The position numbers and the translations under genes are program-made. The notes beneath the pieces are model-generated. The model was not told where the DNA came from, did no database searches, and saw only the letters and a list, made by a program, of their open reading frames with translations. Positions 1 to 40,526 of a stretch of 64,000 nt of DNA are shown here, in pieces. The stretch is from an uncultured Spirochaetales bacterium (lineage in GTDB: Bacteria; UBP6; UBA1177): NCBI GenBank assembly GCA_902774115.1, contig CACYHH010000005.1:1-64000 (forward strand), read 5' to 3'. Each line of letters begins with the position of its first letter. Position 1 is the first letter of the stretch.

Positions 1-2541
1 CCTGCTGTTAAAAGGCATGAAGTATTTCGTGAATATTGCGTTTGCCTCAGCTACAGAAACTTCGGTGCCGCCGAGAGTTACGTGACTTGCATCATTGATC
101 GTGTAGACTTTGTTGCAGTTCTGAGGCATAGTTTCCGGATTGAACCATGCACAGACAAGCTGGTCGGGATTGAGAACCGAAGAAACCGAGTTGAAGTCAG
201 GTCCTTTGGAAGAAGTTGTGATGTAGTTCGCAAAAATCATCATCTCTTTCTTCGTGGCTGCGTATCTGTCCGCCGCATTCGCGTTGCCGGTGAGTGCAGC
301 CTTTGCCTTGGCTGTGTAATCTTTCGGATTTGTTCCGTTATAAGTAAGCGGGATCATCGTGGAATCAAAGAGATCCGCCATGTTCGTGCTTCTGTTGTAT
401 GAAGTCGTTGCAGTGTAAAGTGCAGCAATCGCAGACCTGAGTTCAAGACCGTTTTTAACTGCCGCGACTGCGCCGCTTTCACGCTTTGCGTTCATGCGGT
501 TGTAAAATTCCGAAACAAAGAAGAGGTTTTCGAAAAGGTTGAGATTTCTCTGGTATCCAACAGGTTTGTTCATAAGCTCGTAGAGGTCGTTTCCGAGGTC
601 CGAGAAATGATCGCAATCAAGATAGGGAAGAAGCGAACTTTCCGGTTTATACTTTTCAAAACCCTCTTTTATGAATTTGATAGGTGAATATCCGCGGTAG
701 AATGAGCCGTCGCACCATCTTGCAACAAGAGCATCAACTGAAACCGGAAGAGAAGCCGCTTCGACTGTGAATGTCGAATAGTGGGCACTTGAGCTTGTTC
801 CCATCATAATGGGGTCGCCGGCAGCTGCCGTCATAATCGGATCACCGGCTGCGCTTGACATGATCGGATCGCCTGCTGAAGCCGACATGATAGGATCTCC
901 GGCAGCGGAGTTCATGATCGGGTCGCCCGCTGCCGAGGTCATAATCGGATCTCCCGCCGCGGCGGTCATGATAGGGTCTCCTGCTGCCGAATTCATGATC
1001 GGGTCTCCTGCCGCAGCCTGCATGATAGGATCTCCCGCTGCAGTTGTCATTATCGGATCGCCTGCCGCCGCCATCATGATCGGGTCACCTGCTGCCGAAT
1101 TCATGACATCGACCGAACCGTCGGCATTCGTTCTCGTTGCAGAAAGCATGATCGGATCGCCGCCGAAAACTGTGCCGAGTTCGTGGACGAAGTACATGCT
1201 GTCGCCTTCGAATGTGGCTCCCTCAGGCCTGAATTTAAGGCGCGAGACCTGATTCCCGCCTGCGGAAAGAACTTCATAACTTATTGAATTTATTTTGTTT
1301 CCGTTCTTTTTGACAACTGTGCCTTTCGGGATTACGCCGTAAATACCGTCATCAATCCTGAACGAAATATTCTTTGACGTGTCGCTTACATAGACCGTGC
1401 CGCCGTTTTTCTTCTGAAGGAAAAGAACTGTCGCGGAATCGCTGGATAATGTGTCATTATCAGCTGCGAGTTTTGCTCTCGCTACATACTCTCCTGGATT
1501 TGAAGTCGTGAACTTATAAGTCGCGGCTTCTGCCGATTTATTTTTCAAAGTCCATGTGATTTTGAAATTCGGAGCAACTTTCGCGCTGCCGCCTTCAACG
1601 CTGAAATTTGCACTGCTGTCGGCAGTTTCTCCGATCACGATTTCAGCTTTGTCGGAAACAACTCTGAAACCGTTGAAAAGTTTTGAAAATTCGGGAGATT
1701 CCTTCTTCGCGTCTTCCGCTATCTTTTCGGAAAGAGTCTTAGAATCAGTCGAACCGATGAAGGAAGATAGAAGTTTGAGTCCTTCGGAAATGCCCGAAAG
1801 TTTTGAATAGTCAAGCTCTCCCAGCCATTCGCCTGTTCCGAGTTTTGCGTAAGTTCTTATTTTTGTTTCGCTTTTTCTTAAATCGGCACAGGTCTTGTCA
1901 ACGAGATAAGCCGCAGTTGTGATTTCGGAAATATTTGCGACATGGTCGCTCATCCCTTTGAAGCAGCTTGCGAAATCGCCCGCTTTTACGCAGTAGGTCT
2001 TTGCTGCCGAGATGTCCGCATTGAATGAGAATTTTCCGTTTGAACCGGTATTTGCCGAAGCGATCTCTTCGGTTTTTCCGCATTCGACAAGGGCAACTGT
2101 TGAAGCGCTTCCAGCCTGAACGGTACCGCTGATCTTGTGATTTTCGGTCGCTTCGGGATTTACCGGAGTGTCGGTGTCCGGAGTTTCCGGAATATCGTTG
2201 TCTTCCGGTTCCTGAGGATTGTCGGAATCGTTGTTTTCGTCCGGAGTTACCGGAATATCGGTGTCGGAGTCGTCCTTTTCATCGGGCTCTTCCGTGTCGC
2301 CGGTATCTTCATCCGATACCTCAGTATCCGATGTGTCGGCGTCAGAGTCTTCATCGCCGTTCTCCGGCAGACAGACATCGTTTTCCTCGTCGCAGACAAG
2401 GCCTTCGTTACAGGTTTTGTTAGGATAGCAGGCGCCGTAAAGCTCACCCTGCTTCTTGCCGCTGTTTCCGCCGTTGCCGTCACCGCAGCTCACCATGAAA
2501 ACCAGACCCAGCATTGCCAGAAAAACCAACAATCTCTTCAT
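1..2541 (-). CDS. GDPIM-array lipoprotein (partial, 3' end beyond window)
   Basis: Reading on the minus strand from ATG at 2541 the frame is open to base 1, so at least 847 residues are encoded and the C-terminus is missing. A GGAGGAAAA ribosome site precedes the start. Residues 1-19 form a lipoprotein signal ending in VSC (Cys19). A short Cys-rich module and an acidic Asp/Thr/Pro linker follow to about residue 125, then an Ig-like/carboxypeptidase-regulatory-like segment and a ZU5-like segment (VIPKG near the start, P.GATF later). At 799-1095 lie eleven contiguous 27-bp repeats encoding the nonapeptide AAGDPIMxx, with a twelfth copy at 1147-1164. Directly after the array comes AHYSTF, matching the HF[S/T] strand of the three paralogues at 31386-40526. 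The remaining C-terminal part is not recognised and lacks the WRLP modules of the paralogues. Likely an outer-membrane-anchored surface protein; function unknown. Confidence 0.85.
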   Translation of the reverse strand, partial: MKRLLVFLAMLGLVFMVSCGDGNGGNSGKKQGELYGACYPNKTCNEGLVCDEENDVCLPENGDEDSDADTSDTEVSDEDTGDTEEPDEKDDSDTDIPVTPDENNDSDNPQEPEDNDIPETPDTDTPVNPEATENHKISGTVQAGSASTVALVECGKTEEIASANTGSNGKFSFNADISAAKTYCVKAGDFASCFKGMSDHVANISEITTAAYLVDKTCADLRKSETKIRTYAKLGTGEWLGELDYSKLSGISEGLKLLSSFIGSTDSKTLSEKIAEDAKKESPEFSKLFNGFRVVSDKAEIVIGETADSSANFSVEGGSAKVAPNFKITWTLKNKSAEAATYKFTTSNPGEYVARAKLAADNDTLSSDSATVLFLQKKNGGTVYVSDTSKNISFRIDDGIYGVIPKGTVVKKNGNKINSISYEVLSAGGNQVSRLKFRPEGATFEGDSMYFVHELGTVFGGDPIMLSATRTNADGSVDVMNSAAGDPIMMAAAGDPIMTTAAGDPIMQAAAGDPIMNSAAGDPIMTAAAGDPIMTSAAGDPIMNSAAGDPIMSASAGDPIMSSAAGDPIMTAAAGDPIMMGTSSSAHYSTFTVEAASLPVSVDALVARWCDGSFYRGYSPIKFIKEGFEKYKPESSLLPYLDCDHFSDLGNDLYELMNKPVGYQRNLNLFENLFFVSEFYNRMNAKRESGAVAAVKNGLELRSAIAALYTATTSYNRSTNMADLFDSTMIPLTYNGTNPKDYTAKAKAALTGNANAADRYAATKKEMMIFANYITTSSKGPDFNSVSSVLNPDQLVCAWFNPETMPQNCNKVYTINDASHVTLGGTEVSVAEANAIFTKYFMPFNSR
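799..1164 (-). repeat. 27-bp tandem array encoding GDPIM nonapeptides (11 + 1 copies)
   Basis: Eleven head-to-tail 27-bp units at 799-1095 and one detached unit at 1147-1164, read on the minus strand. Each encodes A-A/G-G-D-P-I-M-x-x. The conserved core is GG.GAY.CC.AT..ATG with synonymous third-base changes; the last two residues and the leading Ala/Gly vary. This is the longest of four such arrays in the window. Confidence 0.93.
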
Positions 2542-31325: not shown

Positions 31326-31353
31326 TTGCTTTTTCGTTCAAAATTCCGATAAT
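31326..31353 (+). promoter_or_regulatory. Predicted sigma70 promoter for the GDPIM lipoprotein cluster
   Basis: TTGCTT at 31326-31331, 16-bp spacer, GATAAT at 31348-31353, 32 bp before the start at 31386. Confidence 0.45.
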
Positions 31354-31385
31354 TGAACAGGAAGATGAAAAATAAGGAGGTTTCC

Positions 31386-34300
31386 ATGAGAAGGTTTTTG
31401 ATTCCGGTTCTTGTTTTTGTCGCGGTTTTCGCTGTTTCATGCAGCGGCAAGAAAAAAACGCAGGAAGAAAACGACTATATCGAGAAAGTGTCGAAGGAAA
31501 TCAAGGCAGAGGAAGGCGGAAAAGTCGAAAGTTCCGACGGAAAGACTTCGGTCGAGATTCCAGCAGGAGCGCTGGATGGCGACATGACAATCACTATGAC
31601 TATTTACGAGGCTGCTGCTTTCCCGAATGATGAAAGCGGAAAAATCGTGAGCAAAGTAGTGGATTTTGAACCATCGGGCACGATTTTCAAAAAACCCGTT
31701 ATAATTACGATGGCTGTGGAAGAGACTTTTGAAAAGAAAATTCTGACTGCAGCGGTTTTCAAAGATACCGAAAGCAGGTGGAGTTATAACGAGCACGGGG
31801 TTTATGCGGTTCTTGCCGGAAGAGATGCCGGCGGTGACCCGATAATGCTGAGTGCAGGAGGCGATCCTATAATGCTCAACGCAGGCGGTGATCCGATTAT
31901 GATGGATGCAGGCGGCGATCCGATTATGCTTGCGGCTGGCGGCGACCCGATAATGCTTGCTGCCGGAGGTGATCCGATAATGCAGAATGCGGCAGGCGAC
32001 CCGATCATGAACTCGGCTGCCGGAGACCCGATCATGATGACAACAGGTCATTTCACAGCTTATACTTTCATCGTGCTTGAGTCTGAAGAGGAATCGTCGG
32101 ATACTGAAATATCAGATATTGATGATACTGATACGGCCGGACCCGATGATGATACCGATTCAGATACAACCAAACCTGACGATGATACAGATACAGACAC
32201 TGCTGAGCCGGAGCCTGAACCGGTTTATTCCAAAGTTCTGTGTACAAACATGGCAATATGTACCGACGGCAACAAAAGCCAGATTTATTGTCCGAAAGAA
32301 GGTGAACCTTTCTATGGTCAGGATGCTCAGTATGCGGCGAGAAAAGGGTGTGTTCCTCATCACAGCTACACCGAAATTCCTTCTGATAATGAGGAAGTAC
32401 CTTTTGTAAAGGACAATGTCACAGGTTTGACATGGTGGTTTACCGGTGAAAGCGGAACTTTTGAAAATATGAAAAACAACTGTGATGTTTCTTACGGCGG
32501 AATAGACAGCTGGCGTCTGCCGACCCAGAAAGAACTTCTTACTCTTACTGACCTCGGCAGGATTCGCGGCGCAATGATAGATCCGGTGTATTTCAGCATA
32601 ATTTATGAAGATTATGAAGTTAACGGACAATATACCTATACGCTGAGTGCCGGTGGAAATTATATCTATATCGCGGCTTTGGGTATGATTGTAAACAAAG
32701 ATATTTTCGGCGGTGAGGAACCTGAAGGTTTGCTCATCTGTGTCAGCGGAGAAGAATACGGAAAAGTCAATGCGGAAAATTACACTACTGTCACGCGAAA
32801 CGGCGAAAATATGATTTCTGATTCAGCAACGAATCTGTTCTGGGAAGGTTATTCCATGGATGTGGATAGTTGGCAAGGGGCTCTTTCCTATTGTGCAAAC
32901 CTTCAATATGCAGGATATTCAGACTGGAGGCTTCCCAACAGGAACGAACTTGCGAGCCTTGTCGACTATTCAAAAGCAGGAACGGGAGCGGAAGTGATTT
33001 CATCTTTCCCGGGTATGACTCCTGATATGTTCTGGACTTCGACTCCGGGAAATATCGGTAGCAACAACTGGATCGTCGATATGAAGAGCGGAGTTGTCTC
33101 TCAGATGACAACGGATGAAATGGAAGAAGAACAAACTTTCTTAGTGCGCTGCGTAAGGAGCGATCTTATTGAAAAACCTGAAATTCCCAATTGCGACGAA
33201 ACAGGAATCGCACCTTGCAAGGATGCAAACGGAACAATCTGGTCTTCGGTAATATATCCCGAAATTTTTGCGGATTTCGACCAGTCTGGATTGTACGAGG
33301 AAGAATGCGGGGATTATCTTCCGGAAGAGGGAGAATGTGAAGAGGAAACAATTGTCGAATGGTCGGTTCTCGCTGATATGTGCCGTTATCTGAGCGAAAA
33401 TGATTCGAACAAGTGGAGACTTCCGACAATAGATGAAATCCGCGGAATCATGACGAGCGAAAAACTTAAAAAGGGCGGCGCATGCGGTTTGACGGACGAA
33501 TGTTATGAAGTTTCATGCGTAAGCGGAGCAGTGGAAGAAGAGAATTGTACGACTGAAGGCGCATCGCAGACGGCTCTGTACGATTACGGATTGATTGTTT
33601 CTGATGTCTGGCAGTTTGGGTCAGGCTACATTGGGCTGTGGGGGTTCAATTTGAATGAGGGGAGCCTGAAATATCCGGCTGAAGTATTCCGTGTTTCCAA
33701 ACTTGTCCAGCGTTGTGTTCTTGACGAAAGCCTGAACTATGAAAAAACCCCGTATTATGATGCTGACAGAGGACTTCACTGGTCTGATATTTCCCCTTAT
33801 TATATAGAAGCAGACGATGCTTATGCATATTGCAGCGGGCTTGCCGCAGAAGATCCTGATCACGACTGGACACTTCCGACAGTAGCGGCGCTCACGACTC
33901 TTCTCAGAGAGTGCGAAGACTCTTCCTGTGCAATAGATGTTACCGGAAAATATTCCGTTCTCGGAGATACTGCATGTTTATGGTCATCGGATTTTGATTT
34001 AAGCATTGCTGTGGAGATGAACTTTAAAGAGGCATATCCTGAGAATATCTATTTTGATGCTGATGACTACAAAGTTTTTGTTAAAGTCCGCTGTGTTTCC
34101 AGTGAACAGGAATGCGGTCCGGCAGACGAAACTCCATGCACAGATTCGTCGAGTGCTTTAATGTGGTCCGCTATGGCACCTGACCAACTGGATGTCGATG
34201 CAGCAGCTGCGTATTGTGAGAACCTGACTGAAGGAGGCTATCACGACTGGAGACTGCCTGACATCAATGAGCTGAGAACACTTATCGAAGAATGTGACGA

Positions 34301-34553
34301 GACGGTTACCGACGGTTCTTGCAGGATATCCGATCCGGATTATTTGAGCAGTGATGATTGGAATGAAGATAATTGTAAGTGCGAAGCTGGCGACAGTGGT
34401 TACAGCAAATTCGGAGATGCGGGAGAAGTTATACTCTGGTCGTCTTCAGTTAGGAGTGATAATTCTGATTTCAACTGGTATGTCGATTTTAGCTTCGGAG
34501 CTGTTGATAGTTCGCTTAATTCGGGTGGTCTTAATGTCCGCTGCGTGAGATAG
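31386..34553 (+). CDS. GDPIM-array DUF1566 lipoprotein, paralogue A
   Basis: 1055 residues from ATG 31386 after AAGGAGG; an earlier ATG at 31353 has no ribosome site. Signal ends FAVSC (Cys18, then Ser at +2). ZU5-like domain at about 40-145 with the marks VEIPAGALDGD and FEPSGTIFKKPV. Eight GDPIM nonapeptides occupy residues 148-219 and are followed by GHFTAYTF (His222-Phe-Thr). An Asp/Thr linker leads to five DUF1566-type modules, each with TGL.W or similar and a D/SWRLP..EL motif. The tail ends in the typical VRCVR strand. Likely a surface lipoprotein binding polymer or protein; function unknown. First of three tandem paralogues. Confidence 0.9.
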   Translation: MRRFLIPVLVFVAVFAVSCSGKKKTQEENDYIEKVSKEIKAEEGGKVESSDGKTSVEIPAGALDGDMTITMTIYEAAAFPNDESGKIVSKVVDFEPSGTIFKKPVIITMAVEETFEKKILTAAVFKDTESRWSYNEHGVYAVLAGRDAGGDPIMLSAGGDPIMLNAGGDPIMMDAGGDPIMLAAGGDPIMLAAGGDPIMQNAAGDPIMNSAAGDPIMMTTGHFTAYTFIVLESEEESSDTEISDIDDTDTAGPDDDTDSDTTKPDDDTDTDTAEPEPEPVYSKVLCTNMAICTDGNKSQIYCPKEGEPFYGQDAQYAARKGCVPHHSYTEIPSDNEEVPFVKDNVTGLTWWFTGESGTFENMKNNCDVSYGGIDSWRLPTQKELLTLTDLGRIRGAMIDPVYFSIIYEDYEVNGQYTYTLSAGGNYIYIAALGMIVNKDIFGGEEPEGLLICVSGEEYGKVNAENYTTVTRNGENMISDSATNLFWEGYSMDVDSWQGALSYCANLQYAGYSDWRLPNRNELASLVDYSKAGTGAEVISSFPGMTPDMFWTSTPGNIGSNNWIVDMKSGVVSQMTTDEMEEEQTFLVRCVRSDLIEKPEIPNCDETGIAPCKDANGTIWSSVIYPEIFADFDQSGLYEEECGDYLPEEGECEEETIVEWSVLADMCRYLSENDSNKWRLPTIDEIRGIMTSEKLKKGGACGLTDECYEVSCVSGAVEEENCTTEGASQTALYDYGLIVSDVWQFGSGYIGLWGFNLNEGSLKYPAEVFRVSKLVQRCVLDESLNYEKTPYYDADRGLHWSDISPYYIEADDAYAYCSGLAAEDPDHDWTLPTVAALTTLLRECEDSSCAIDVTGKYSVLGDTACLWSSDFDLSIAVEMNFKEAYPENIYFDADDYKVFVKVRCVSSEQECGPADETPCTDSSSALMWSAMAPDQLDVDAAAAYCENLTEGGYHDWRLPDINELRTLIEECDETVTDGSCRISDPDYLSSDDWNEDNCKCEAGDSGYSKFGDAGEVILWSSSVRSDNSDFNWYVDFSFGAVDSSLNSGGLNVRCVR
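31827..32042 (+). repeat. 27-bp GDPIM array, 8 copies (paralogue A)
   Basis: Eight head-to-tail 27-bp units, the first six with AGGDPIM and the last two with AAGDPIM; the final two units end in NS and MT as in paralogues B and C. Confidence 0.95.
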
Positions 34554-34561
34554 GATTCGTA

Positions 34562-34584
34562 GAGACGTCATAATATGGCGTCTC
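34562..34584. other. Inverted repeat after the stop of paralogue A
   Basis: GAGACGTCAT and ATGGCGTCTC separated by three bases; one G-U pair in a 10-bp stem. Six A, not T, follow, so it is not a canonical terminator on the plus strand. Confidence 0.6.
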
Positions 34585-34603
34585 AAAAAATAGGGAGGGT
34601 TCC

Positions 34604-37600
34604 ATGAGAAGGTTTTTGATTCCGGTTCTTGTTTTTGCCGCGGTTTTTGCTGTTTCATGCAGCGGCAAGAAAAAAACGAACGAAGAAAACAGCTATGTCG
34701 AAGAAGTTTCGAAAGAAATTTCAGCCGAGGAAGGCGGAACGGTCGAGAGTTCCGACGGAAAGACTTCGATTGAAATTCCGGGCGGAGCGCTTGAGAGCGA
34801 CACTGTGATCACGATGAGGATTTACGATGCCGAAGGCTACAAAGGAACTGAAGGCAAGGATGTCGTCAGCAAGGTAGTCGAGTTCGAGCCAAGCGGCACG
34901 GTTTTCAAAAAACCTGTCATGATTTCGATGACAGCGCTTGAGGATGTCAAAGGCGATATCCTCAGAGCTTCCAAAAAGAAAGTTATCACGGCAGCGGTTT
35001 ACCGCGAGGAAAAAGGCGCATGGAGCTACAGTCCTATCGGTGCGGCGGTCAAAATTTCAGGGTACGATGACGGCGGAGACCCGATCATGACAAATGCTGC
35101 CGGTGATCCTATCATGCTGAACGCTGCAGGAGATCCGATAATGATGGATGCAGCGGGTGATCCTATTATGCTGAGTGCTGCCGGCGATCCGATAATGGTC
35201 ACCGCTGCGGGTGATCCGATAATGAACTCCGCTGCAGGCGATCCGATCATGATGACGACAGGCCACTTCACCTCTTACGCTTTCTTTGAGGTAGAGGCTG
35301 AAAATGAGGAAGGACCAGTTGAAGAACCTGACACTGAATTGCCTGTTAAAGAAGATGACTACGAGCCTGCGGAAACTGACGATGATGAACCGGCTGAAAC
35401 TGATGACGACGAACCGGCTGAAACAGACGAAGACGTTATTCCGGAGCCGGAAGAACCGCAGTATTCCAAAGTTGTCTGCACGAATATGACGATCTGTACG
35501 ACCTTGAGCGGAAGACAGATCATCTGCCCGGCGGAAGATGCAGAGCTTTACGGTCAGGATGCGCAGTATGCGGCAAGAAAATCGTGTGTTCCGCATCACT
35601 CCTTTGCAAAAATCCCGAAAAACGAATTTATTGAAAACGATTTTATCGAGGTTAAGGATAATTCCACCGGTCTTACGTGGCTTTTCACCGGAGAAAAAGG
35701 CGCTTACGAAGACCTTAAAACCGGCTGTGACATTTCCTACGGCGGAAGCGAGGACTGGAGACTTCCGACTCCGAAAGAGCTTCTCACGCTTGCTCACAAC
35801 GAGATGCTTTTCCGGGATATGCCGGCAGTCGAGCTGTTTTATTTCTGGGAGATTTTTGAAAACATCGAAAGCAGCAGCTATTTCGGACCTTACACATGGA
35901 GCTCGGCCGAAGGTTATCTTTATTCGCTGGAAAAGGGACAGTTCCTGCCTCTGGAATACTACGCGAATTACTCATCTTATTTCGAAGACGGTCTTCTTGT
36001 CTGCGTAAGCGGCAAAGAATACGGAAAAGTCAAGGCGGCAAGTTACGTTCCTCTTGCCGAAAGCGAAGGAAATGTGATTTTTGATGCCGGAACAAACCTT
36101 TACTGGCAGAAAGATTCTGCTCAGATCGACTCGTGGAAAGAGGCTCTTTCATACTGCGAAAACCTTGAATATGCAGGGTATGACGACTGGAGACTTCCGA
36201 ACAAAAACGAGCTTCTTAGCCTTGTCGATTATTCAAAAGCAGGGACGGAAACGGATGTCCTTTCTTCATTCCCCGGCATGACACCCGATATTTTCTGGAG
36301 CTCTACTGGTGCAGACTACGGAGCGTGGGCTGTCTATATGAAGGACGGAACTTTAGATGCAACCGGCGGTGAAGGCGGCGGAGATATCGTTGTCGATGCC
36401 TACTATACAAGGAGCATCAAAAGAGACGAAATTGAAGCGGAAGAAGAGGAATACGAACCTGTTCTTACAGTGCGCTGCGTAAGAAGTCTTCTTGATGAAA
36501 AAAACGACATTCCGGATTGCGGCGAAACAGGCATTGCTCCCTGCAAAGATGCGATGGGAACAGTCTGGTCATCAGTTATATACTTTGATAGCTTTGCCGG
36601 TTTCGATAATTCGGAAATTTATGAAGGCGGAGAATTCCTCGCTCCAAGAAAAAACGCTGACAGATCAGAAAATACAGTCTATGTTTATTCTCTTGTTGAT
36701 ATGTGTCGCAATCTCTATGAAAGCGGTTCGCACAAGTGGAGACTTCCGACGATAGACGAGATCCGCTCGCTTGTTACGACCGATAAACTCAAAACGGGCG
36801 GAAGCTGCAGCGTAACGAACGAACATTTTGAAAATTCCTGGTTTACAGAGGATACCTGCACCGGCGACGATCCCTCGGAAACGATCCTTTTTGATTACGG
36901 CTTTATGCTTTCAGGAACACTGAACCTTGAATATTATAATCCTGAGGAAGAGGTTTATCCTGAATTGTGGGGTGTGAGCGTCTATGACGGCGCACTTGTG
37001 ACTGTTTCCGAAGAAATTCCTCTTTCTGCACTTGCCCAGAGGTGCGTCCTCGACGAAACTCTAAACTACAAGGAAACGCCATATCTTGATCCTGAAACGG
37101 GGCTTCTCTGGTCTGATATTTCATCAGGTTATTTGGATTTCGAAGAAGCGAAAAGCTATTGTTCCAGTCTTATGGAAGGGACGGATCGCTACTGGAGACT
37201 TCCGACGATTGATGAACTCAAGACGCTTGTTGTAAACTGCAGCGAAGAGAATGCGCCGTGTCCGATTGATCTCAACGGAAAATATTCCGTTTTAGGCGAC
37301 AACAACGGTTTGTGGTCGTCAACTTGGGGGAGAGATTTGGCGCAATACCAGGTCCTCTTTTTTGATTATGTCGAAGTTGATAATGAATACCAAGCTTCCT
37401 GGGCACTTCCGGCACGCTGCGTTTCAGACGGGCTGAACCCGTGCAGAAACGATCCTTGTGCAGTCGATTCGCATGCAACCGGATGTTTCCCTGATTCTTC
37501 TGAAATATATCACTGCGGATGCGTGGAAAACTATTTCTGGAACGGCTCACAGTGTGTAAACCCGTGCGACGCAGAACCGTGTGCCGATGTTTCGCACGGA

Positions 37601-37909
37601 ACCGGATGTTTCCCCGATTCTTTTGAGGCATATCACTGCGGATGCGAGGAAAACTACACCTGGAACGGCGACGACAAGGTGTGTAAGGCAAATACCAAAA
37701 CTGAGAACTGTACCGCTGAACTGCCGGAAAATGCGGAGTGGTGGAGTGAAAGCATAACCCAGACATGGAGCGGAAACGCGTGGCTGCCTGAAATAACAGG
37801 CGAAGCAATTTACAGCGAAGAAGAGGTCGAAAACGAATGCCGCTTCAAATGCATTGCCCTCTTCGTCTGGAACAGCGAATCACAGCAGTGTGACCCGCCG
37901 TCTCGGTAG
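34604..37909 (+). CDS. GDPIM-array DUF1566 lipoprotein, paralogue B
   Basis: 1101 residues, ATG after GGGAGGG. Its first 20 codons are nearly identical in DNA to paralogue A. Lipobox FAVSC with Ser at +2. ZU5-like domain (IEIPGGALESD, FEPSGTVFKKPV), seven GDPIM nonapeptides at residues 156-218, then GHFTSYAF (His221-Phe-Thr). After an acidic repeat linker (EPAETDDDE three times) are four DUF1566-type WRLP modules. The C-terminus differs from A: two EGF-like Cys modules (NPCRNDPCAVDSHATGC and NPCDAEPCADVSHGTGC types) and a final Cys-rich domain ending in CRFKC...FVWN. Probably a surface adhesin-like lipoprotein. Confidence 0.9.
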   Translation: MRRFLIPVLVFAAVFAVSCSGKKKTNEENSYVEEVSKEISAEEGGTVESSDGKTSIEIPGGALESDTVITMRIYDAEGYKGTEGKDVVSKVVEFEPSGTVFKKPVMISMTALEDVKGDILRASKKKVITAAVYREEKGAWSYSPIGAAVKISGYDDGGDPIMTNAAGDPIMLNAAGDPIMMDAAGDPIMLSAAGDPIMVTAAGDPIMNSAAGDPIMMTTGHFTSYAFFEVEAENEEGPVEEPDTELPVKEDDYEPAETDDDEPAETDDDEPAETDEDVIPEPEEPQYSKVVCTNMTICTTLSGRQIICPAEDAELYGQDAQYAARKSCVPHHSFAKIPKNEFIENDFIEVKDNSTGLTWLFTGEKGAYEDLKTGCDISYGGSEDWRLPTPKELLTLAHNEMLFRDMPAVELFYFWEIFENIESSSYFGPYTWSSAEGYLYSLEKGQFLPLEYYANYSSYFEDGLLVCVSGKEYGKVKAASYVPLAESEGNVIFDAGTNLYWQKDSAQIDSWKEALSYCENLEYAGYDDWRLPNKNELLSLVDYSKAGTETDVLSSFPGMTPDIFWSSTGADYGAWAVYMKDGTLDATGGEGGGDIVVDAYYTRSIKRDEIEAEEEEYEPVLTVRCVRSLLDEKNDIPDCGETGIAPCKDAMGTVWSSVIYFDSFAGFDNSEIYEGGEFLAPRKNADRSENTVYVYSLVDMCRNLYESGSHKWRLPTIDEIRSLVTTDKLKTGGSCSVTNEHFENSWFTEDTCTGDDPSETILFDYGFMLSGTLNLEYYNPEEEVYPELWGVSVYDGALVTVSEEIPLSALAQRCVLDETLNYKETPYLDPETGLLWSDISSGYLDFEEAKSYCSSLMEGTDRYWRLPTIDELKTLVVNCSEENAPCPIDLNGKYSVLGDNNGLWSSTWGRDLAQYQVLFFDYVEVDNEYQASWALPARCVSDGLNPCRNDPCAVDSHATGCFPDSSEIYHCGCVENYFWNGSQCVNPCDAEPCADVSHGTGCFPDSFEAYHCGCEENYTWNGDDKVCKANTKTENCTAELPENAEWWSESITQTWSGNAWLPEITGEAIYSEEEVENECRFKCIALFVWNSESQQCDPPSR
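35069..35257 (+). repeat. 27-bp GDPIM array, 7 copies (paralogue B)
   Basis: Seven contiguous 27-bp units; variable pairs after GDPIM read TN, LN, MD, LS, VT, NS, MT. Confidence 0.95.
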
Positions 37910-37912
37910 TAG

Positions 37913-37932
37913 AGACGTGACCTGACACGTCT
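37913..37932. other. Inverted repeat after the stop of paralogue B
   Basis: AGACGTG at 37913-37919 and CACGTCT at 37926-37932 form a perfect 7-bp stem with a 6-base loop. The left half (GAGACG, 37912-37917) can instead pair with CGTCTC at the end of the coding sequence (37899-37904), with the stop codon in the loop. Confidence 0.55.
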
Positions 37933-37941
37933 TGGTTTATT

Positions 37942-38043
37942 CCCCCGCTAAGTTAGAGGGGGTGCCGCGGAAGCGGCGGGGGCGTGTGTTGTGTGACACA
38001 CTCCACAGTCAGTAAACTGACAGCTCCCCTAACTTAGGGGAGC
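37942..38043. repeat. Five-hairpin intergenic element (MITE/REP-like)
   Basis: Five hairpins in 102 bp: CCCCC..GGGGG arms (37942-37962) around CTAAGTTAG; GCCGC-GGAA-GCGGC (37964-37977); GTGTGT/ACACAC (37984-38001); GTCAGT-AA-ACTGAC (38008-38021); GCTCCCCTA/TAGGGGAGC (38023-38043). It ends 9 bp before the ribosome site of paralogue C. Similar hairpin strings with CTAAGTTAG and GTCAGT..ACTGAC parts are familiar to me from gut-bacterial genomes as dispersed repeats; only one copy is here. Confidence 0.8.
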
Positions 38044-38063
38044 AGAATATAAAGGAGGTTTCC

Positions 38064-40526
38064 ATGAGAAGGTTTTTAATTCCGGTTCTTGTTTTTATCG
38101 CGGTTTTCGTTGTTTCGTGTGACGAAGACAAAAAAACGAATAACGGCGGCAGCAGCGAAGCGAAGCCTGTTGAAGAGGTTTCTCAGGATATTCCGGCTGA
38201 AGAAGGGGGAAAAATCGAGGCAGAAACCAAAGATGAGGCTGTATCTATCGAGATTCCCGGCGGAGCTCTTGACGAAGACGTCAAAATCACGATGAAAATT
38301 TACGATGCCGATGGTTACAAAGGGACGGAAGGGCTTGATGTAATCAGCAAAGTAGTCGAATTCGAGCCAAGCGGCACGGTTTTCAAAAAGCCCGTCATAA
38401 TCACGATGAAAACACTCAAAGATGTCGGAAGCGTCACAAGAGCGGCTAAAAAGAAAGTCATAACGGCAGCGGTTTACCGCGAGGAAAAAGGCGAATGGAG
38501 CTACAGCCCGATAGGTGCAGCCGTTAAGATTTCAGGACGCAACGAAGGGGGTGATCCGATAATGACAAGCGCAGCTGGAGACCCGATAATGCTGAATGCT
38601 GGCGGAGATCCGATCATGATGCCGAGCTCAGGCGGTGATCCGATAATGCTGAGTGCTGCAGGAGATCCCATCATGGTTACGGCTGCAGGTGATCCGATCA
38701 TGAACTCGGCTGCGGGGGATCCGATAATGATGACTACAGGTCACTTCTCCTCTTACACATTCCTTGTTGTCGATCTTGAAGCTGAAGCAGAACCGGATGA
38801 CGGTATTACGGACAACGATATTACGGACAACGATGATAATGACGATACAGATGACAGCGATACCGACACGCATGAATCTTCCGGGGATGATCCTTGTGAC
38901 CCGAACCCTTGCGGCAGCATTGAAAATTCAAACGGAGTCTGCCATGTCATTTTTCTGGGTCGGGAGGGCGATATAATGAGTTTTGCATGTGACTGCATTG
39001 ATTCTTACGGATGGGACGGGCTGGGATGTTCACCTGTAGATATGTCAGATCCCTGCGAGAGTGATCCGTGTACCGATATCGTTCATTCCGACGGTGAGTG
39101 TTATGTGGTTTACAATACCGATCATGTCAAAACTTTCAGCTGCGGCTGTGAGGCTCCATATTCGTGGGACGGCTCTAAGTGTTCAAGCAGCTGTGCAGAT
39201 GATCCGTGCTCGACAGTTTATCATTCAACCGGAATATGCCTCCCGAAACCGGACGGTAAATACGAATGCGGATGCGCGGAAAACTATTACTGGGACGGCT
39301 CGGCAAAGAAGTGTTCTAACCCGTGCACGGCAGATCCGTGCGGCAGTGTTCCGCATACCACCGGATGCGTTCCGAAAACGGGAACCGAATATGTCTGCAC
39401 ATGCGAAGATGTCTATTCGTGGGACGGCATAAAGTGTGTAAGCCCGTGTGATTCCGAGCCGTGCTCAGCATTCGAACATACGACTGTTTGCACGGCGCAG
39501 GCTCCTGATTTCTACAGCTGCAAATGCGATGACGGCTTCTACTGGTGGGGAACGGTGAAAGGATGCATCACTGAACAGCCGACAGTAGGCAGGATCTGCA
39601 CTTCACAGTTTAAATGCTACGATGAAAGCAAGGAAATTCCGTGTCCGGCGCCGGGAGAACCTTTCTACGGTCAGGATGCAACCAAGGCGCGTGAAGGTTT
39701 GTGCGCTCCTAAGAGTTTCACGATTGTTGAAACCGGAATCGAAAACGAGGACATCGTCCGTGACGACAATACCGGTCTTGAATGGATGAGAACACCGGAC
39801 GAAAGCGGAGATTACCGTTGGAGTGGTGCCGACTATTACTGCGAAAATCTTGAATACGGCGGCTACGATGACTGGAGACTGTCCACTCCGAGAGAGTATA
39901 TGACCATTGTCCACAACAACAGATGGCCTACGATAGATATGAACTATTTTGATATCCCGCTTCCTGCTGACGGTAGTTATTACGACTACATATCGTGGGC
40001 GTCCTACAGTGCTCCTTACGGTAATTACTGGGGCGTTAACTTCGAGTCTGGGGCAGTTTCTGATTACGGGAACAATCCGACGAATTTCGTGCGCTGCGTC
40101 CGCGGTGAGACTATGCCGGAAAGCAGTTTCATAATTCCGGAAGCATACGAAGAAGCCGAAGAAAAGATAGTTGTTGATACCGTAACCGGACTTCAGTGGC
40201 AGTATCACGATGCCGATGTTCCGGACAACTCTTCTTTCTGGAAAGGTGCTATGGATTACTGCGAAAACCTGACTTATGCAGGATTTTCTGACTGGAGACT
40301 TCCCAATAAAGACGAACTTATGACTATAGTAGATTTCGGCAGGTCGGATCCTGCATCATCTTTCCCGGATATTCAGGCTGTGAATTACCTGCTCACTTCC
40401 ACCACGATGCCTGATGAGCATGATGCCGTTTTCCGTCTTTACCTGACCAGAGGCAGCATGAATACCACAATGTATAAGAATAGTGCAGGAGTTGATTACC
40501 ACGTCCACTGCGTACGTTCGGAATAG
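38064..40526 (+). CDS. GDPIM-array lipoprotein with EGF-like and DUF1566 modules, paralogue C
   Basis: 820 residues, ATG after AAAGGAGG. Lipobox VVSC with Asp-Glu at +2/+3, unlike A and B. ZU5-like domain (IEIPGGALDED, FEPSGTVFKKPV), seven GDPIM nonapeptides, one with an extra residue (MMPSSGGDPIM), then GHFSSYTF (His227-Phe-Ser). After an Asp/Thr linker come five EGF-like modules with the DPC...C..H..G.C pattern (about 275-510), then two DUF1566-type modules ending in WRLSTPRE and WRLPNKDE. Function unknown; surface binding is an inference. Confidence 0.9.
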   Translation: MRRFLIPVLVFIAVFVVSCDEDKKTNNGGSSEAKPVEEVSQDIPAEEGGKIEAETKDEAVSIEIPGGALDEDVKITMKIYDADGYKGTEGLDVISKVVEFEPSGTVFKKPVIITMKTLKDVGSVTRAAKKKVITAAVYREEKGEWSYSPIGAAVKISGRNEGGDPIMTSAAGDPIMLNAGGDPIMMPSSGGDPIMLSAAGDPIMVTAAGDPIMNSAAGDPIMMTTGHFSSYTFLVVDLEAEAEPDDGITDNDITDNDDNDDTDDSDTDTHESSGDDPCDPNPCGSIENSNGVCHVIFLGREGDIMSFACDCIDSYGWDGLGCSPVDMSDPCESDPCTDIVHSDGECYVVYNTDHVKTFSCGCEAPYSWDGSKCSSSCADDPCSTVYHSTGICLPKPDGKYECGCAENYYWDGSAKKCSNPCTADPCGSVPHTTGCVPKTGTEYVCTCEDVYSWDGIKCVSPCDSEPCSAFEHTTVCTAQAPDFYSCKCDDGFYWWGTVKGCITEQPTVGRICTSQFKCYDESKEIPCPAPGEPFYGQDATKAREGLCAPKSFTIVETGIENEDIVRDDNTGLEWMRTPDESGDYRWSGADYYCENLEYGGYDDWRLSTPREYMTIVHNNRWPTIDMNYFDIPLPADGSYYDYISWASYSAPYGNYWGVNFESGAVSDYGNNPTNFVRCVRGETMPESSFIIPEAYEEAEEKIVVDTVTGLQWQYHDADVPDNSSFWKGAMDYCENLTYAGFSDWRLPNKDELMTIVDFGRSDPASSFPDIQAVNYLLTSTTMPDEHDAVFRLYLTRGSMNTTMYKNSAGVDYHVHCVRSE
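38544..38735 (+). repeat. 27-bp GDPIM array, 7 copies (paralogue C)
   Basis: Seven units, six of 27 bp and one of 30 bp because the third unit has an extra Ser codon. The last two units (NS, MT endings) match those of A and B. Confidence 0.94.

Follow-up and report, generated by a model that had tools for sequence, protein, structure and literature searches.

A GDPIM repeat array set into the ZU5 domain of surface lipoproteins from an uncultured bacterium, just before a candidate self-cleavage motif

The window analysed here, a stretch of 64,000 nucleotides from the genome of an uncultured Spirochaetales bacterium (GTDB lineage UBP6; UBA1177), carries three paralogous genes in tandem, all of which encode a lipoprotein signal, a ZU5 domain, an array of GDPIM units, an HF[S/T] motif and C-terminal Lcl_C domains (Table 1). 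The Cys-rich stretch of paralogue 3 is called EGF-like from an EGF_3 match slightly below Pfam's cut-off. The order given in the original prediction, namely ZU5 marks followed by the GDPIM array and then GHF[S/T], is seen in all three full paralogues, and the HF[S/T] sites that it had placed are exact and in frame (HFT, HFT and HFS). This arrangement of parts is confirmed, and it is not a product of chance, since GDPIM units followed by GHF[S/T] are found in all 12 Pfam ZU5 domains of this genome, in which GDPIM-encoding DNA occurs at 114 sites and the reversed pattern at none. The 12 proteins all have a lipobox-like N-terminus. Among the matches listed for the window's genome, GDPIM sites fall in the 12 ZU5 genes, in the partial gene at the window edge and in two relatives of that gene.

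Table 1. Features of the GDPIM-bearing genes in the window (positions in the 64,000-nucleotide stretch)
Feature	Position	Strand	Basis
Paralogue 1: lipoprotein signal, ZU5, GDPIM array, Lcl_C domains	31353..34553	+	ORF, Pfam, lipobox (as L010)
Paralogue 1, Pfam ZU5 match	31509..31715	+	Pfam
Paralogue 1, GDPIM array, 8 units, period 9 aa; last unit within penultimate ZU5 strand as modelled	31833..32036	+	
Paralogue 1, HFT, at the predicted break before the last strand (model residues 187-189)	32049..32057	+	
Paralogue 2: order of parts as in paralogue 1	34604..37909	+	ORF, Pfam
Paralogue 2, Pfam ZU5 match	34724..34933	+	Pfam
Paralogue 2, GDPIM array, 7 units	35075..35251	+	
Paralogue 2, HFT motif	35264..35272	+	
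Paralogue 3: ZU5, array, Cys-rich EGF-like stretch, Lcl_C	38064..40526	+	ORF, Pfam
Paralogue 3, Pfam ZU5 match	38202..38411	+	Pfam
Paralogue 3, GDPIM array, 7 units (one 10-aa step)	38550..38729	+	
Paralogue 3, HFS motif	38742..38750	+	
Partial gene (runs past window edge): PKD-like domain, divergent ZU5-like domain, array, AHYSTF	1..2541	-	
Partial gene, GDPIM array, 12 units; unit 1 to unit 2, 24 aa	805..1161	-	
Partial gene, HYS motif	775..783	-	

In the three paralogues the array has a period of nine residues, with a single step of ten as the exception, and the nine-residue unit has the consensus GDPIM-x-[SANT]-A-[AGS]. Six-residue units of the form (A/S)GDPIM are found in sister genera and families, and one ZU5 domain (L168, G002:C4:14400-16200), in an open frame of 3845 aa, has 18 units in which six- and nine-residue steps are mixed. 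Across all loci, 796 of 836 inter-unit steps are multiples of three residues, a regularity for which none of the explanations considered here accounts. That the array is tandem and variable between paralogues would fit a recent, functionless minisatellite expansion, yet nearly all the codons within an array differ while GDPIM stays constant. The 34 units of the window keep GDPIM unchanged over 31 distinct 15-base spellings, counted per array (8 of 8, 7 of 7, 6 of 7 and 10 of 12), and such varied codons beneath an invariant peptide point to selection on the peptide and not to fresh slippage. Array length moreover holds steady among orthologues; in one case, for example, 9 of 10 genomes share a length of 65 aa, and in another all 5 of 5 have 35 aa. 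On codon diversity, on the register of the steps and on this steadiness of length we reject a recent minisatellite expansion, which we rate as extremely improbable. Asp-Pro self-cleavage of the GDPH type was also considered for the GDPIM units, in which the His of GDPH is absent.

That the host domain is ZU5-like, as had been proposed, is borne out for the three paralogues by Pfam and profile matches and, for paralogue 1, by the predicted structure. PF00791 (ZU5), whose cut-off is 21 bits, matches paralogues 1, 2 and 3 with scores of 25.7, 28.3 and 27.1, over positions 7-79 of the 97 in the profile. A profile of 49 array-bearing domains (A1) finds the ZU5 domains of ankyrin-3 (E 1.2e-7) and ankyrin-2 (E 1.6e-7) in the PDB, and hhalign places the paralogue cores with array-less ZU5 domains of other lineages (9 of the 18 out-of-phylum domains described below) at 98.8 per cent probability. 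The AlphaFold model of the paralogue 1 domain with its array (203 residues, window positions 31491-32099) has a mean pLDDT of 74.7 and a pTM of 0.74, with the core mostly above 80 and the middle of the array below 50. Compared by VIA-align, this model is closest to the ankyrin ZU5 domain 3ud2_B (Z 12.7, rmsd 2.8, 135 residues aligned); it also matches UNC5b 3g5b (Z 8.5, rmsd 3.2, 139 aligned), the GAIN domains of CD97 (9mqr_A; Z 9.6, rmsd 2.7, 123 aligned) and BAI3 (4dlo_A; Z 9.2, rmsd 3.0, 128 aligned) and, weakly, GPR56 (Z 6.0, rmsd 3.0, 117 aligned). The structure prediction suggested as a check of the fold thus returns ZU5 and not another fold. For the three paralogues, the profile matches and the fold search rule out a fold other than ZU5, and the predicted ZU5 fold, together with insertion of the array into it, is well supported by profiles and model.

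In the model, the array occupies residues 115-182 and its last unit enters a strand at residues 180-187; the chain breaks between F188 and T189, and the last strand spans residues 190-197. The idea that the array is an expanded loop before the last strand holds as far as the place of insertion is concerned, but the last unit is modelled as the penultimate strand itself. As this unit is also fixed in register, with exactly four residues between it and the His in 105 of 111 array-bearing domains, the array is probably not purely a loop. The first unit lies 27 to 153 residues from the His in array-bearing domains, and Trp and His are 17 to 22 residues apart in nine aligned array-less ZU5 domains from outside the phylum (alignment A3). 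We make no statement on a solenoid fold, because the middle units have a pLDDT below 50 in the AlphaFold model.

The original prediction also held that the partial gene has AHYSTF in the corresponding place, and the motif is indeed there, in reverse orientation to the paralogues. In the family of this gene, the first GDPIM unit lies one hairpin earlier than the remaining units. In several of its relatives the PKD-like domain also carries an array in a loop, with one to eight units, and in others this loop has none (alignment A2); the modelled PKD-like domain of the partial gene resembles the PKD domain 4jrw_A (Z 8.4, rmsd 2.3, 74 aligned). The Pfam search gave no ZU5 match in the ZU5-like domain of the partial gene. 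In profile comparisons this domain matches the ZU5 cores of the paralogues at 73 and 67 per cent, against 0.2 per cent for a PKD control, and the array-less ZU5 domains of other lineages at 14 per cent. The partial-gene model has a mean pLDDT of 60.3 and a pTM of 0.49 and is poor beyond residue 196; a fold search with it gave no ZU5 match, the match list being filled by the PKD-like domain. The identification of this domain as ZU5 is only suggestive. In a paralogue of the partial gene in the same genome (L245, C1:1-2600), the last unit is followed by a short, unlike reading that lacks the HYS strand, and this paralogue looks broken or rearranged. Because second arrays sit in PKD-like loops, we regard the array as a module that hairpins can host, with ZU5 as its main site.

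Conservation of the motif was assessed in a census of PF00791 hits in 61 genomes, selected on neither array nor motif. Of these genomes, 28 belong to the window's phylum (G000-G027), and 23 of the 28 have between them 117 hits, all of which were read. The array is present in 112 hits and absent from 5, with one of each cut by a contig end. HF[S/T] is found in all 111 readable array-bearing domains (62 HFT and 49 HFS), which comprise 108 distinct sequences and are related, not independent; the residue following the Ser/Thr varies. It is found in none of the four readable array-less domains of the phylum, which make up only two independent groups: one reads HLG (L141, with an array-length stretch lacking GDPIM), and three, of one orthologous group, read NFH. 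A second count took array loci by DNA pattern, under a rule that omitted 29 arrays of other type and those clipped at a locus end. It gave H[F/Y][S/T] in 125 of 128 ZU5-type arrays. Of the three exceptions, one reads NFS, one is a spirochaete protein that the rule had caught, and one is cut at the locus end.

Outside the phylum, 18 ZU5 domains (2 from this census and 3 and 13 from two further searches) were read by eye, with no GDPIM array seen in any of them. Eleven have H[F/L][S/T] (8 HFS, 1 HFT and 2 HLS), while the remaining seven read TLS, ELS, EFC, SFC, ECG, HGG or TGL. The motif is thus conserved throughout the array-bearing domains and in a majority of wider homologues. The expectation that bacterial ZU5-like domains often end in an HFS-like strand is right in that such strands are common, but it does not extend to the seven. 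Within the phylum, the readable array-less relatives lack HF[S/T] as well, which hints at a link between array and motif. Tight coupling is less probable in view of a gene in the window's own genome (L005) with a largely decayed array and a retained GHFT, of the small array-less sample (four domains, three of one group), and of the HFS motifs that occur without an array outside the phylum.

As to the distribution of the array, a pattern scan of a collection of 84,980 species returned 99 stretches, mostly from UBP6_UBA1177, UBP6_UBA1209-type records and rumen or gut assemblies; two isolated matches (L022 and L029) look like chance when inspected. Among the 61 genomes, the pattern is present in 19, all inside the window's order. 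Four short secreted or lipoprotein-like proteins of Spirochaetales or Sphaerochaetaceae (L014:992-1354, L020:2451-2864, L026:7354-7749 and L062:5933-6325) are made up of a signal sequence followed by a GDPIM array reaching nearly to the C-terminus, with neither HF[S/T] nor a visible ZU5 domain. Three unrelated secreted proteins (L028:5834-7999, L102:2058-4985 and L037:2957-4711) also carry arrays: one precedes an alpha-amylase domain, another follows a dockerin domain, and the third belongs to a transglutaminase-like protein whose match falls short of Pfam's cut-off. A literature search for 'GDPIM' gave unrelated titles only.

The suggestion that HF[S/T] could be autoproteolytic rests on its position and chemistry. 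An HFS-like motif lies directly before the last strand in the paralogue 1 model and is present in all 111 domains, and the candidate nucleophile position after the Phe is always Ser or Thr (49 and 62 domains). In the parts of PMC3210808 available to us, HFS is described as used by Nup98 and PIDD, the Phe before the cut as a structural anchor, and Phe-296 of CARD8, the residue before the cut, as equivalent to Leu-677 of UNC5b. The UNC5b match ends at model residue 201, chain residue 690, and an ungapped back-count from these range ends would put F188 on Leu-677. The weaker GPR56 match (Z 6.0) ends at model residue 188, chain residue 382, an equivalence likewise read from range ends, and the GPR56 mutant T383A is reported as cleavage-deficient in the accessible portion of PMC7948743. 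A search for CD97 S531A found no paper.

Among the fully invariant columns of A1 are His187 and Asp125, the latter in a repeat unit; beyond His187 these columns hold no His, Glu, Lys or Asn, and Lys68 and Asp16 come close to invariance. In CARD8, further conserved His and Glu residues near the site assist cleavage. No second catalytic residue was identified in the conserved columns of A1. The autopeptidase superfamily of PMC3482391 is marked, in the part of that paper available, by a C-terminal CxH motif, and a Cys two residues before the His is found in 0 of the 111 domains, where the residue is T, V, A, M or S.

Our best explanation of these observations is as follows. We take each protein to be held at the cell surface by a lipid anchor, with a ZU5 beta-sandwich as its first folded domain. 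The GDPIM array extends the hairpin that joins the Trp-bearing strand to the last one, and its final unit, as modelled, forms the strand that leads into HF[S/T]. The motif would then occupy the self-cut position of ZU5-type domains (PIDD, CARD8, NLRP1) and GAIN-type domains (adhesion GPCRs). The His would activate, the Phe would anchor a strained turn and the Ser/Thr would attack the preceding peptide bond, so that self-cleavage would fall between Phe and Ser/Thr. The last strand might then keep the C-terminal part, with Lcl_C and others, attached to the lipid-anchored N-terminal part, which includes the array, and release from the surface would need no protease. The order of parts, the ZU5 homology with its predicted fold, the site of insertion and the conservation are what the data show, and cut, retention and release are what we infer. 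We see the chances of this explanation as evenly balanced, and we judge autoproteolysis at HF[S/T] itself, argued from position and from the His, Phe and hydroxyl, to be roughly a coin toss. The case for cleavage is weakened by the absence of the CxH motif and of an identified second catalytic residue.

The missing CxH motif also favours a purely structural role, in which a buried Phe and a capping hydroxyl sit at the strand break and the uncut domain serves as a stalk for the array and the C-terminal domains. The fold is common to ankyrin and UNC5b, the latter having Leu at the Phe position, and the anchoring role given to the Phe in the available parts of PMC3210808 would suit such a stalk. 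Since 7 of the 18 ZU5 domains of other lineages are without H[F/L][S/T], descent may have preserved the motif here as a feature of packing. However, Ser or Thr follows the Phe in 111 of 111 domains, yet array-less ZU5 domains manage with Gly, Cys and other residues, so the fold alone does not demand HF[S/T], and on this ground the motif leans towards autoproteolysis. A structural role is a serious possibility all the same, at a little under an even chance.

The array and not the ZU5 motif could also be the functional part, acting as a binding or spacing element on exposed beta-hairpins with HF[S/T] as a bystander. It recurs in the PKD-like loops of several relatives and alongside alpha-amylase and dockerin domains, and in Spirochaetales records it makes up almost the whole of a short secreted protein. 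Such occurrences are what one would expect of an element of this kind, as is the invariance of its units as protein over varied codons. The constant spacing between last unit and His fits less well, as does the fact that the array is absent from 5 of 117 ZU5 hits of which the 4 readable ones have no HF[S/T], which hints at a link. We regard this account as tentative, with an appreciable chance that falls well short of even. Finally, the array might take an active part in a self-cleaving ZU5 switch, as a handle on the strand beside the scissile bond whose binding, stretching or folding sets cut or release. Such a link would then have left its mark in the array-less relatives, where HF[S/T] is missing together with the array. 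This switch appears improbable. The best reading remains that of an old array which extends the hairpin beside a probable autoproteolysis site of ZU5/GAIN type, in a surface protein held by a lipid anchor.

In animals, ZU5 and GAIN domains serve apoptosis, the inflammasome and adhesion receptors as hinges that cleave themselves. In these uncultured gut bacteria, a GDPIM repeat is threaded into the ZU5 domain of surface lipoproteins just before the motif that is the self-cleavage site of the related animal domains. The family is a clean test set, offering many paralogues, an invariant HF[S/T], array-less HLG and NFH relatives and an insertion that touches the strand adjacent to the site. If the domains cut, bacteria would have a protease-free release of surface adhesins; if they do not, HF[S/T] would be a structural signature, and motif-based prediction of bacterial autoproteolysis would need care. 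For bacterial ZU5 relatives, self-cutting is predicted in the accessible part of PMC3482391. Our literature search, in sources seen in part, turned up no work that goes further than predicting cleavage of bacterial ZU5 domains, and this does not prove that there is none.

The RTX beta-roll is built on a nine-residue period with the nonapeptide GGxGxDxUx. The GDPIM array shares the nine-residue period, but its unit is GDPIMxxA[AGS], GGxGxDxUx was not found in it, and RTX-type toxin chains appeared in the profile search only at E values of 3.8 to 6.5, which are not meaningful. The ZU5 domains of ankyrin, UNC5b and ZO-1 give the best fold and profile matches; unlike the present domains, they belong to scaffolds or receptors, and UNC5b has Leu at the Phe position (PMC3210808, available parts). 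The chain of the ZO-1 ZU5 structure 2kxr ends in ...IDHF, where bacterial ZU5 domains read HF[S/T], although the local alignment score alone is not significant. The bacterial ZU5 autopeptidases of Zhang et al. (2012, PMC3482391) are also surface proteins with ZU5 near the N-terminus and a proposed self-release. Those ZU5 autopeptidases of surface and toxin proteins differ in having the C-terminal CxH, absent here, and no array is described for them in the part of the paper available.

GAIN domains of adhesion GPCRs match the model with Z of 6.0 to 9.6; for GPR56 the matched range stops at the residue that precedes the cut, opposite F188 of the model. The GPS reads HL[S/T] and has disulphides. 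It precedes a receptor, whereas here the motif is HF[S/T] in 111 of 111 domains, with no HL[S/T], and lies in a lipoprotein. The ZU5 (FIIND) domains of PIDD, CARD8 and NLRP1 are eukaryotic, are followed by UPA and death-fold domains, lack a repeat array and have proven cleavage, which is predicted for the present domains; what they have in common with them is the ZU5 fold and, as described in the available parts of PMC3210808, [H/S]FS just before the last strand, with Phe followed by Ser.
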